Shown: positions 59,094 to 64,000 of the stretch, piece by piece
Numbering within the stretch: position 1 is the first letter of the stretch
Layout of the letters: the number at the start of each line of letters is the position of its first letter
Assembly (NCBI RefSeq): GCF_003259315.1
Contig: NZ_QLLT01000015.1
Coordinates: forward strand, 62,001-126,000
Source of the DNA: Kitasatospora sp. SolWspMP-SS2h
Lineage (GTDB): Bacteria > Actinomycetota > Actinomycetes > Streptomycetales > Streptomycetaceae
Reading direction: 5' to 3'
DNA: 64,000 nucleotides
Notes under the pieces: generated by a model
Told to the model about the DNA's origin: nothing
The model's input: the letters and a program-made list of their open reading frames with translations, nothing else
The model's database searches: none
Made by a program: the position numbers and the translations under genes

Positions 59094-60405
59094 TCATCAT
59101 CACCGATCCGACCAGCATGGCGCTGCCCAGCAGGTAGGGGATGACCACTTTGGCGCTGCGGACGCGCTCACCCGCGAAGCTGTCCTCGCGGGTGCCCCAG
59201 GACGCGTTGTGGCCCATCCGGAAGAAGCCCAGCAGCCGGACCGGCAGCAGGATGAAGGTGTTGATCACCATGAAGACCGGCAGGAAGACCAAGTCCTGGA
59301 TCCGGTAGGCGAAGTGACGGCCGAACCGGATGCAGAGCGACAGCAGCGACATCACCGCGGCGAGCACCAGGATGGTGGCGACGGCCCGCCAGTGCACCGC
59401 GGGCAGCGGCAGCTCCATGTACAGGCTGGGCCCCGTCCGGTGCCACAGGGCCTCGCCCCAGGAGGCGAAGGAGCCGAGCAGCACGAACGGCACCAGGATG
59501 TCGACCAGGTAGAACAGCGCCAGCATCCGGGCCCGGCGCAGCATCCACGGCAGCATCCGCAGGGTGTTGTACTGCGAGCCGCGGGCCCAGCGGTACTGCT
59601 GCTTGGCGAGCTTGCCCAGCCGCAGCGGGGCGTCCGTGTACACCAGGGAGGTGGACTGGTACACCGTGCGGTAGCCCTGCTTGAGGGCGTAGTTGGTCAG
59701 CGTGCGGTCGTCGCTGACCTCCAGGAAGACCCCGAGGAACTTCTCCGACAGGAAGTCGTCCATGCACTCCAGCAGGATCTTCCGGCGGAACGCGATGGTC
59801 CGGCCCGGCAGGCAGCCGACGGTGCCGAGCACGCTCATCGCCGGCAGCGAGTACTGGCAGCGCACGCTCTCCAGCCAGTCCGCCCAGCGGGTGAGCACGG
59901 ACCGGCCGGGCTCCAGGATGCGCTGACGGGTCGTCACCCCGCCGACGTCCTCGTCGCGGAACGGCTTGACCAGCTCCGGCAGGGTGGTGGGGGTCCAGAC
60001 GGTGTCGGAGTCGACCAGCACCGCGATGTCACCGGTGCAGGCCTCCAGGCCGACCTTCAGGGCGTTGCGCTTGCCCGGCGTCCGGGTCCACAGCCAGTAC
60101 ACGCCGAGCTGGTCGCAGACCTGCTCCAGGACTTCGTTGCGCCTGCCGTTGATGACCACGACCATCTCGGTGGGCTGCTGGTCGATGATCCGGTCCAGCA
60201 CCGAGTAGAAGAGGTCCGGCGGTTCGTCGACCACCGGGATGATCACGGAGGTGGTCACCTCGTAGGGCCGCTTCCAGGGGCGGTAGCGGCGGGCCAGGCC
60301 GAGCCTGACGAACCACAGGGCCCACACGCCGGTCATGAAGACGGCGAAGGGGTAGACGGTGCCGACAGTCCACCACTGGCGGAGCTGGAGCAGGAAAGCG
60401 AGCAT
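59086..60405 (-). CDS. Processive family 2 glycosyltransferase (polysaccharide synthase)
   Basis: A 439-residue membrane synthase with one or two N-terminal helices and four or so C-terminal helices. It has the D-S-D motif (132-134), the second acidic motif S-D-D (231-233) and Q-Q-Y-R-W (269-273), the hallmark of processive enzymes such as hyaluronan, cellulose or poly-GlcNAc synthases. The product cannot be told. On the minus strand a TATCAT hexamer (60452-60457) lies about 47 nt upstream and may be its -10 box. It forms an overlapping pair with GH26-like copy 2. Confidence 0.88.
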   Translation of the reverse strand: MLAFLLQLRQWWTVGTVYPFAVFMTGVWALWFVRLGLARRYRPWKRPYEVTTSVIIPVVDEPPDLFYSVLDRIIDQQPTEMVVVINGRRNEVLEQVCDQLGVYWLWTRTPGKRNALKVGLEACTGDIAVLVDSDTVWTPTTLPELVKPFRDEDVGGVTTRQRILEPGRSVLTRWADWLESVRCQYSLPAMSVLGTVGCLPGRTIAFRRKILLECMDDFLSEKFLGVFLEVSDDRTLTNYALKQGYRTVYQSTSLVYTDAPLRLGKLAKQQYRWARGSQYNTLRMLPWMLRRARMLALFYLVDILVPFVLLGSFASWGEALWHRTGPSLYMELPLPAVHWRAVATILVLAAVMSLLSLCIRFGRHFAYRIQDLVFLPVFMVINTFILLPVRLLGFFRMGHNASWGTREDSFAGERVRSAKVVIPYLLGSAMLVGSVMMSV

Positions 60406-60559
60406 GGCCCCCGAAACCGTCCCGACTTGGCTGTGTGCTTAGGCCGTCCTGATGATAGACGCTCGGCCAAGGGCTAAAACGCTGCAATAGCGGGCATACG
60501 CGCCCCCCTGGTGAGGAGGGCCGTGCCAATCGGGACCAAGCCGTAATGTCGAAGGGGCG

Positions 60560-61552
60560 TCAGAGCTTGCGCAGCAGCGCCCGGCGGACCTTGTGGTCCG
60601 GTCCCTTCTGGAGCACCAGGGTGGCCCGGCCGCGGGTGGGCAGGACGTTCTCCAGCAGGTTGGGCTTGTTGATGGTCCGCCAGACCTGGCGGCCGTAGTC
60701 CATCGCCTCCTCCTCGGGCACCTCGGTGAAGCGCCGGAAGTAGGAGTTCGGGTCCTGGAAGGCGGTCTGCCGCAGCTTGCGGAAGCGGTCCAGGTACCAG
60801 GCCTCGATGTCGTCGGTGCGGGCGTCGACGTAGATCGAGAAGTCGAAGTAGTCGGCGACGGCCATCCTGGTCCGGCCGTCGGTGCCGGGCAGGGCCGGCT
60901 GGAGCACGTTCAGGCCCTCGACGATCAGGATGTCGGGGCGCTCCACCACCAGCCGCTCGCCCGGCACGATGTCGTACACCAGGTGGGAGTAGACCGGCGC
61001 GGTGACCCGGTCCTTGCCGGCCTTCACGTCGGCGACGAAGCGCATCAGCGCCCGCCGGTCGTACGACTCGGGGAAGCCCTTGCGGGCCATCAGGCCGCGC
61101 CGGCGCAGCTCCGCGTTGGGCAGCAGGAAGCCGTCGGTGGTGACCAGCTCGACCCGGGGGTGCTCGGGCCAGCGGGCCAGCAGCGCCTGGAGCAGGCGGG
61201 CGGTGGTGGACTTGCCGACCGCGACGGAGCCGGCCACGCCGATGATGAACGGGGTGCGCACCCGTTCGGTGTCGGGCGTGTCCAGGAAGCTCCCGATGGC
61301 GCCGCGCAGCTCGTGGGTGGCGTGCACGTAGAGGTTGAGCAGCCGGGACAGCGGCAGGTAGACGTCCCGGACCTCGTCGAGGTCCAGGGCGGTGCCGAGT
61401 CCGCGCAGGCGCTCGACCTCCTCGGCGGTCAGCGGCAGGGGGGTGCGCTCGCGCAGCGCGCTCCACTCGGCGCGGTCCAGATCCACGTACGGGGAGGGAG
61501 TGGGCGCGGGCGGCGCACCCTTCGTACAGAGTTCGGTCAGCACGGTGTCCAT
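60560..61552 (-). CDS. coaA: Type I pantothenate kinase
   Basis: A 330-residue enzyme for the first step of coenzyme A synthesis. The P-loop [12 protein letters not shown] is at 105-116, followed by T-D-G-F-L-x-P-N and R-K-G-F-P-E-S-Y-D segments typical of the CoaA class. It is transcribed divergently from glmS; the shared 177-bp region contains eight 13-bp repeats. Confidence 0.97.
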
Positions 61553-61590
61553 TGTGGGCCGTGTCCGGGTCGACGGGTGTTGTGGTGTCG

Positions 61591-61694
61591 GTCACCCGGC
61601 GCGGCTGCCCCGTGCGGCCACCCCGTGCGGCCGCCCCGTGCGACGACCCCGCGCGGTCACCCGGTGTGGTCACCCGGTGTGGTCATCCGACGCA
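61591..61694. repeat. Eight tandem 13-bp repeats between coaA and glmS
   Basis: Eight head-to-tail 13-mers with no spacer. Units 6 and 7 are identical (GTCACCCGGTGTG), units 2-4 form a second subtype (G-Y-C/T-R-CCCCGTGCG) and unit 8 is the most diverged. The array ends about 35 bp before the glmS start. Confidence 0.9.
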
Positions 61695-61716
61695 CCGGGG
61701 GCCGAACGTCCGCACT

Positions 61717-61722
61717 TATGCT
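61717..61722 (+). promoter_or_regulatory. -10 box for leaderless glmS transcript
   Basis: TATGCT ends 7 nt before the glmS ATG with no Shine-Dalgarno sequence between, the usual geometry for transcription starting at the A of the ATG. The -35 region is occupied by the end of the 13-bp repeat array and has no TTGAC match. Confidence 0.5.
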
Positions 61723-61729
61723 GGCGCAC

Positions 61730-63586
61730 ATGTGCGGAATTGTTGGATATACCGGGCCTCAGGAGGCCCTCGACGTAGTGATCGCAGGTCTGCGGAGGCT
61801 GGAGTACCGGGGCTACGACTCGGCCGGCGTCGCGGTGCAGACCGCAGGAGCCGACGGGCAGTGGCTCCTGTCCACCGACAAGCGGGCCGGAAAGCTCGTC
61901 AACCTCGAGAAGTCGCTGGCCGAAACCCCTCTCCCGGCCGGCACCACGGGCATCGGACACACCCGGTGGGCCACCCACGGCGGCCCCACCGACGCCAACG
62001 CCCACCCCCACCTGGACGACCACCGCAAGGTCGCGGTGGTCCACAACGGCATCATCGAGAACTTCGCCCGGCTGCGCGCCGACCTCACCGACCGGGGCCA
62101 CACCCTCCGCTCCGAGACCGACACCGAGGTCGTCGCGCACCTGCTCGCCGAGGCCTACGACGGCGACCTGGCCGAGGCCATGCGGGCCGTCTGCCGCCAG
62201 CTCGACGGCGCCTTCACCCTGGTCGCGGTGCACGCGGACGCCCCCGGCACGGTGGTCGGCGCCCGCCGCAACTCGCCGCTGGTGGTCGGCGTCGGCGACG
62301 GCGAGAACTTCCTCGCCTCGGACGTCGCCGCGTTCATCGCGCACACCCGCGAGGCGATCGAGCTCGGCCAGGACCAGGTCGTCGAGCTGCGCCCCGAGGG
62401 CGTCACGGTGACCAACTTCGACGGCACCCCCGCCGAGGTCCGCGAGTACCACGTGGACTGGGACGCCTCGGCCGCCGAGAAGGGCGGCTACGACTACTTC
62501 ATGCTCAAGGAGATCGCCGAGCAGCCGAAGGCCGTCTCCGACACCCTGCTCGGCCGGATCGGCACCGACGGCCGGCTCACCCTCGACGAGCTGCGCATCC
62601 CCGACCAGGTGCTGCGCGAGGTCGACAAGGTGGTGATCGTCGCCTGCGGCACCGCGTTCCACGCCGGCATGATCGCCAAGTACGCGATCGAGCACTGGAC
62701 CCGGGTCCCCTGCGAGGTCGAGGTCGCCAGCGAGTTCCGCTACCGCGACCCGATCATGGACGACCGCACCCTGGTGATCGCCATCTCGCAGTCCGGCGAG
62801 ACCATGGACACCCTGATGGCGCTGCGGCACGCCCGCGAGCAGGGCGCCAAGGTGCTGGCGATCTGCAACACCAACGGCTCGACCATCCCGCGCGAGTCCG
62901 ACGCGGTGCTGTACACCCACGCCGGCCCCGAGGTCGCGGTCGCCTCCACCAAGGCGTTCCTGACCCAGCTGGTCGCCTGCTACCTGGTCGCCCTCTACCT
63001 GGGCCAGGTGCGCGGCACCAAGTGGGGCGACGAGATCTCCTCCGTCATCCGCGAGCTCGGCGACGCCCCCCGGCAGGTCGAGCAGGTGCTCGGCACCATG
63101 GAGCCCGTCCGGGCGCTGGCCCGCTCGCTGGCCGGCGCCCGCTCGGTGCTCTTCCTCGGCCGGCACGTCGGCTACCCGGTGGCCCTGGAGGGCGCGCTCA
63201 AGCTCAAGGAGCTCGCCTACATGCACGCCGAGGGCTTCGCGGCCGGCGAGCTCAAGCACGGCCCGATCGCCCTGATCGAGGAGGGCCTGCCGGTGGTCGT
63301 GGTGGTGCCCTCGCCGCGCGGCCGCTCGATCCTGCACGACAAGATCGTCTCCAACATCCAGGAGATCCGGGCCCGCGGCGCGCGCACCATCGTGATCGCC
63401 GAGGAGGGCGACGAGGCCGTCGTCCCCTACGCCGACCACCTGATCCGCATCCCGGTCACCCCGACCCTGCTCCAGCCCCTGGTCTCCACCGTCCCGCTCC
63501 AGGTCTTCGCCTGCGAGCTGGCCACCGCCAAGGGCCACGAGGTCGACCAGCCGCGCAACCTGGCCAAGTCCGTCACGGTCGAGTAG
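61730..63586 (+). CDS. glmS: Glutamine-fructose-6-phosphate aminotransferase (isomerizing)
   Basis: A 618-residue enzyme that makes glucosamine-6-phosphate, the entry to UDP-GlcNAc. The N-terminal glutaminase nucleophile is Cys2 (M-C-G-I-V-G-Y), which fixes the start at ATG 61730. Two SIS domains follow, and the C-terminal [13 protein letters not shown] is complete. The upstream frame stays open but an extension would bury Cys2. Confidence 0.98.
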
Positions 63587-63601
63587 CGCGCGTATCGTCC
63601 A

Positions 63602-63629
63602 TGCCGGTGCGGAGCGCTCCGCACCGGCA
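63602..63629. terminator. 28-bp perfect palindrome between glmS and acpS
   Basis: A loopless perfect palindrome starting 16 nt after the glmS stop and ending 18 nt before the acpS start. As RNA it would form a 12-bp stem with a 4-nt loop and could terminate glmS transcripts. As DNA it could be an operator. Confidence 0.7.
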
Positions 63630-63647
63630 CGGACGAGGGAGCGGGAC

Positions 63648-64000
63648 GTGATCATCGGGGTCGGCATCGACGTGGCGGACATCGGGCGGTTCGGGGAGTC
63701 CCTGGAACGCACCCCCGGGCTGGCCGAACGCCTCTTCACCCCCGCCGAACTGACCCTCCCCTCCGGACAGCGCCGCGGCACGGCCTCGCTGGCGGCCCGG
63801 TTCGCCGCGAAGGAGGCCGTCGCCAAGGCGCTCGGCGCCCCGCCCGGCCTGCGCTGGGAGGACGCCGAGGTCCGGGTCGAGGCGTCCGGCCGCCCGCTGC
63901 TGCACGTCACCGGCACCGTCGAGGCCCGGGCCGCCGCGCTCGGCGTGACCTCCTGGCACCTCTCCCTCAGCCACGACGCGGGCGTCGCCTCGGCGGTCGT
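63648..64000 (+). CDS. acpS: Holo-[acyl-carrier-protein] synthase, 3' partial
   Basis: The first 117 residues of AcpS, which transfers 4'-phosphopantetheine from CoA to acyl carrier protein. G-V-G-I-D-V with metal-binding Asp8, [12 protein letters not shown] with the catalytic Glu/Lys, and the L-S-L-S-H-D end are visible. Only a few residues are cut off by the window edge. GTG 63648 has GAGGGAGCGGGAC upstream. Its substrate, CoA, depends on the nearby coaA. Confidence 0.95.

Follow-up and report, generated by a model that had tools for sequence, protein, structure and literature searches.

A 13-bp tandem array between coaA and glmS in one Kitasatospora species, probably a young minisatellite grown from the edge of a conserved candidate Crp-type site

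In the window, the 64,000-nucleotide stretch of Kitasatospora DNA analysed here, the divergent genes coaA and glmS are separated by an intergenic region that holds a 13-bp tandem array, a candidate Crp-type site and two putative −10 elements (Table 1). Across 70 genomes of the genus, the listed ATG of coaA, three codons before the GTG, is missing or has shifted out of frame in 5, which makes the GTG the likely start. The coaA −10-like hexamer lies 7 nt from this GTG in 66 genomes and 6 nt in 4, and the glmS −10 lies 7 nt from the ATG in 67 of the 70 and 6 nt in the other 3. According to the accessible parts of two studies, the mean distance from −10 to start point is 6.3 nt and 17% of transcripts are leaderless in Streptomyces lividans (PMC8079986), and about 21% are leaderless in S. 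coelicolor (PMC4895711). To judge from sequence, both coaA and glmS look leaderless, so the array probably lies upstream of both transcripts and of both inferred start points. A consensus scan of positions 61300-62000 for sigma-70 promoters and terminators gave no match. A preliminary description of this DNA had the array running up to the putative −35 position of glmS; it does reach that position, but in none of the 70 genomes does an nTGACn motif lie 15–19 bp ahead of the glmS −10. The window's genome also has a second glmS-like gene elsewhere (L002, G000:C3:393019-393127), identified by a DNA match and by reading the sequence, and in two other genomes the coaA match comes in two pieces (G008:C1:3425208-3426201 and G021:C1:3686441-3687429), possibly through assembly frameshifts.

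Table 1. Features of the coaA–glmS region, in positions of the window
Feature	Position	Strand	Remarks
coaA (pantothenate kinase)	60560..61543	−	Likely start GTG 61543; ATG 61552 in open reading frame lists
Putative coaA −10, CACAAT	61551..61556	−	Plus strand ATTGTG in 69 of 70 genomes, ATTGTC in 1
Crp-type site (putative), GTGGTGTCGGTCAC	61582..61595		14-bp palindrome; unit 1 begins with its right half
13-bp array, eight units	61590..61693		Phased on GGTCAC; 61591-61694 in the phase of the preliminary description
Inner units 2–5, decayed	61603..61654		3–6 of 13 bases unlike the seed unit
Units 7–8, glmS-side copy of the ancestral two-unit seed	61668..61693		0 differences over 13 + 11 bases
Putative glmS −10, TATGCT	61717..61722	+	TATGCT in 67 of 70 genomes, TATCCT in 2, TATGAT in 1
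glmS (glucosamine-6-phosphate synthase)	61730..63586	+

The eight units stand head-to-tail without a single indel. Tandem Repeats Finder reported period 13 at 61589-61679 and 61655-61689, and self-identity was 0.75 at lag 13, 0.72 at lag 26 and 0.66 at lag 39, compared with 0.21–0.38 at all remaining lags between 5 and 38. Over 91 columns, the highest lag score was 70, a value reached by none of 2,000 dinucleotide shuffles (mean 40.9, maximum 50). Unit 6 is identical to unit 7, and units 2–4 form one subtype. These measurements bear out the preliminary description of eight phased 13-bp repeats with two identical units and distinct unit subtypes. Scoring 40 of 152 candidates in the window's genome brought up no second array, the next match having E = 0.004 across 25 bp, and the extended seed gave no further match there with up to three mismatches. 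The exact 15-mer TGTGGTGTCGGTCAC was considered as a regulon motif; it occurs once in the window's genome and is present in 81 of 297 family genomes, so it defines no regulon. When the array was folded as DNA, using DNA parameters only, neither strand did better than shuffles, which leaves no hairpin to account for slippage.

To place the array in the genus, we searched 70 genomes with CoaA, all of which matched, and took the coaA–glmS intergenic region from each; 68 were recovered at first and the last two through looser anchors, and all 70 were compared. The array was found in two of them, both of the window's species, with eight units in the window's genome (G000) and six in the other (G011), so that copy number within the species, as sampled by two genomes, differs in whole units. 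A two-unit seed, GGTCACCCGGTGT followed by GGTCATCCGAC or a near variant, is present in ten sister genomes, and the 13-bp array is absent from the remaining 58 intergenic regions (97–131 bp). The best 39-column identity at lag 13 reached 0.82 and 0.77 in the array genomes and did not exceed 0.51 in any of the remaining 68. Without the array, the coaA GTG and the glmS ATG are 108 bp apart in 42 genomes, 109 in 9, 107 in 2 and 129–131 in 11, with rarer lengths of 97 (two genomes), 124 (one) and 127 (one); with it, they are 186 bp (eight units) or 160 bp (six units) apart. Compared with the usual 108 bp, the array genomes are longer by exactly 78 bp (6 × 13) and 52 bp (4 × 13), and this gain in whole 13-bp units supports the stepwise expansion proposed in the preliminary description. 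That description had also held that an alignment of related regions in which relatives lack the array would point to a neutral minisatellite, and relatives without it are what the 70 intergenic regions show. In a tree built from 750 nt of glmS by a quick method, with 25 of 71 inner branches open, the two array genomes and the ten sisters form one clade (SH-aLRT 99), and the support for grouping the two array genomes together is only 80. Among at least 592 named GlmS matches listed, the closest is that of Kitasatospora mediocidica (93%), and the window's genome is of the Kitasatospora type, not Streptomyces proper. In another clade of the genus, we noted an apparent 22-bp tandem repeat in the same coaA–glmS spacer of G049, G038 and G029 (L097, L101 and L102), with an identity of 0.68–0.82.

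The units have not aged evenly. An alignment of the two genomes of the species spans 2519 bases and contains 19 mismatches altogether, and in the best whole-unit alignment of their arrays at least 9 differences fall within 78 bases, against 1 in 46 and 0 in 36 in the flanks (Fisher p = 0.008). Units 2–4 of G011 differ from the seed at 2–5 bases, in line with the decay of the inner units of G000, and the glmS-side units differ at 0–1. The GTCAC core is gone from all four inner units of G000 and from two of the three in G011, in which unit 4 is the sole inner unit to retain it; units 1, 6 and 7 keep it. In the ten sisters, 4 of 19 columns of the seed block are variable, compared with 25 of 42 in the adjoining spacers (Fisher p = 0.006, for columns that share a phylogeny). 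This conservation suggests that at least the ends of the array are probably functional.

The preliminary description, sound as to the array itself, did not list the palindrome at its start. Every one of the 70 genomes of the genus has GTG(N)6GNCAC at this position, 59 of them in identical sequence, and always 31 bp from the coaA −10. The same form is the Streptomyces Crp consensus (Gao et al. 2012, as quoted in PMC10033298), and the Corynebacterium GlxR consensus is GTG(N)8CAC (PMC10033298); in the accessible part of that paper, purified Crp gave no EMSA binding and GlxR was used in its place. A 224-aa protein encoded in the window's genome has Crp/Fnr-family regulators as its closest solved relatives (E = 4e-81), and we infer it to be the Crp orthologue; the genome contains 15 HTH_Crp_2 matches. 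For comparison with Streptomyces, we took the best 80 of at least 592 named GlmS loci, 46 of which gave a CoaA match. Of the 17 Streptomyces loci with a divergent coaA in this set, 14 have GTG(N)8CAC 30 bp from the coaA −10, and L017, L020 and L026 are without it; by reading, 13 of the 14 sites fit GTG(N)6GNCAC, with L023 departing. In 10 of these 14 loci glmS lies more than 0.5 kb away, which argues that the site is primarily a coaA element. A 150-bp scan of 26 loci from other genera gave GTG(N)8CAC only in L032 and L033, at other positions. The open-access literature searched, outside which lie the 393 Crp targets listed by Gao et al. 2012, contained no report of this array, of the conserved candidate site or of an action of Crp on coaA or glmS.

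The candidate site lies 62–64 bp before the glmS ATG in 53 of the 70 genomes, and its spacer to the glmS −10 is 42–44 bp in 53 of the 68 genomes without the array; the other 15 have spacers of 52, 79, 82 or 84–86 bp, classes whose helical phasing is suggestive, with few independent changes behind it. Among 41 genomes with a 43-bp spacer, pairs with a glmS divergence of at least 0.10 had a spacer identity of 0.38–0.39, compared with 0.29 for shuffled spacers (399 non-independent pairs), and their third codon positions were 0.72–0.76 alike; in closer pairs the spacer identity was 0.53–0.88. Our first spacing control was the distance between coaA and the gene downstream of it; only 5 of 30 loci allowed this to be measured (157, 184, 235, 235 and 242 bp), and it was replaced by the rpsI–glmM intergenic region (30 genomes), an imperfect control that is longer, holds other elements and has lengths that cluster by clade. 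In the same 28 genomes, the coaA–glmS distance was within 1 bp of 108 in 22, whereas rpsI–glmM took 16 lengths with at most 6 genomes within 1 bp of any single length. A steady spacer length over diverged sequence, together with the contrast to rpsI–glmM, suggests selection on the site–glmS spacing, and hence some role for the candidate site at glmS. In the four Streptomyces in which glmS adjoins coaA, the distance from site to glmS is 23, 99, 139 and 166 bp. The array shifts the site to about 115 bp from the glmS ATG in G011 and 141 bp in G000, by an added length of about five helical turns and about 7.4 turns, respectively. Either glmS does not depend strictly on its distance from the site, or its regulation has shifted in the window's species.

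One explanation that would give the array a regulatory effect is that the Crp-type site serves both promoters, so that the altered spacing loses or changes the Crp response of glmS and keeps that of coaA. We consider this rather unlikely. The steady 42–44-bp spacer, the far steadier length of coaA–glmS than of rpsI–glmM and the lack of an nTGACn −35 at glmS, as in activator-dependent promoters, all speak for it, as does class I activation by CRP in Escherichia coli, which peaks at −61.5 and drops sharply with spacing (accessible part of PMC6301791); yet they have to be set against the 15 non-array genomes that are spaced otherwise, the lack of a fixed spacing in the four Streptomyces, the imperfection of the control and the array genomes themselves, in which the spacing is evidently dispensable for survival. 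A fuller version is distinctly improbable: one Crp-type operator would serve two divergent leaderless promoters, for coenzyme A (coaA) and cell-wall amino sugar (glmS), at a steady genus-wide spacing, and a minisatellite born inside it would act as a spacing rheostat that splits the operator in one species; coaA would keep the full site and glmS a half-site copy at the old position, such that strains differ in the cAMP/Crp response of glmS.

The preliminary description had left room for an operator array or an RNA-level element, and both have lost ground. If the repeated units bound a regulator of glmS or coaA, in a single copy or in several, the exact phasing, the conserved seed block of the sisters and the GTCAC kept at units 1, 6 and 7 would be accounted for, but a working operator array is very improbable given its restriction to one species at differing copy numbers, the decay of most inner units and steps of 13 bp that are not whole helical turns. 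Moreover, a scan of both strands gave a single GTG(N)6GNCAC match in each of the two array intergenic regions, and no unit rebuilds the motif. DasR was also considered; its responsive element (dre) is A(G/C)TGGTCTAGACCA(G/C)T, and glmS1 and glmS2 are up in an S. coelicolor dasR mutant, according to the accessible part of PMC4398421. Scored against the 16-bp dre palindrome, the window's intergenic region reached at best 10 of 16, as did 116 of 300 shuffles, and neither array intergenic region has a DasR site above shuffle; among nine intergenic regions scored, only L094, which has no array, was higher (11 of 16; 15 of 300 shuffles). An element acting at the RNA level in the leader of coaA or of glmS, favoured by position alone, is scarcely credible, since both genes look leaderless. 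An Rfam search of 60000-64000 with E up to 5 gave two matches, neither at the array and both below the gathering score, with no glmS ribozyme upstream of glmS, and the folding of both strands, as noted above, adds nothing in its favour. Separately, we observed an element like TGGGAATTTCCGAAATCGGGCA about 63–66 bp before the glmS ATG, a nearly fixed distance, in 10 of the 23 loci scanned (L008–L030), namely L013, L014, L016, L019, L021, L022, L024, L025, L027 and L030. AATTTC occurs in none of the 70 Kitasatospora coaA–glmS intergenic regions, and the element may be a Streptomyces-specific glmS control element.

Whole-unit gain and internal drift are best fitted by a young minisatellite, without conserved function as an array, that grew in one species from the two-unit seed, and we regard this as the likely explanation. 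The seed would have overlapped the right half of the conserved Crp-type site and grown by whole 13-bp units, probably through replication slippage or unequal exchange, to eight copies in the window and six in G011. Inner copies would then decay as both ends stayed near intact, probably because the ends overlap flanking promoter elements. The case against the minisatellite includes the sampling of two genomes of the species, the GTCAC of unit 4 in G011, the seed conservation in the sisters, the support of 80 for the pairing and, as regards slippage, the folding of either strand no better than shuffles. As an ordinary strain-variable minisatellite, the array is less interesting than the conserved candidate Crp-type site in which it originated. 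The site leads one to expect that coaA responds to Crp both in Kitasatospora and in much of Streptomyces, and that glmS perhaps does so in Kitasatospora, and the array supplies two natural spacing variants of one promoter on which a Crp response could be tested.

Among known systems, the DasR responsive element differs in having no match above shuffle in the window's intergenic region. The candidate site fits both the Streptomyces Crp and the Corynebacterium GlxR consensus, whereas the array units are no such sites. In most of the genus, the centre of the candidate site falls about 61.5–63.5 bp ahead of the inferred start point of glmS, a spacing comparable to that of the class I CRP promoters of E. 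coli (accessible part of PMC6301791), a species of another phylum. The array most resembles a bacterial intergenic minisatellite or VNTR locus, with short head-to-tail units, a copy-number difference within the species and degenerate inner units; it departs from such loci in that its unit 1 overlaps a conserved Crp-type palindrome.
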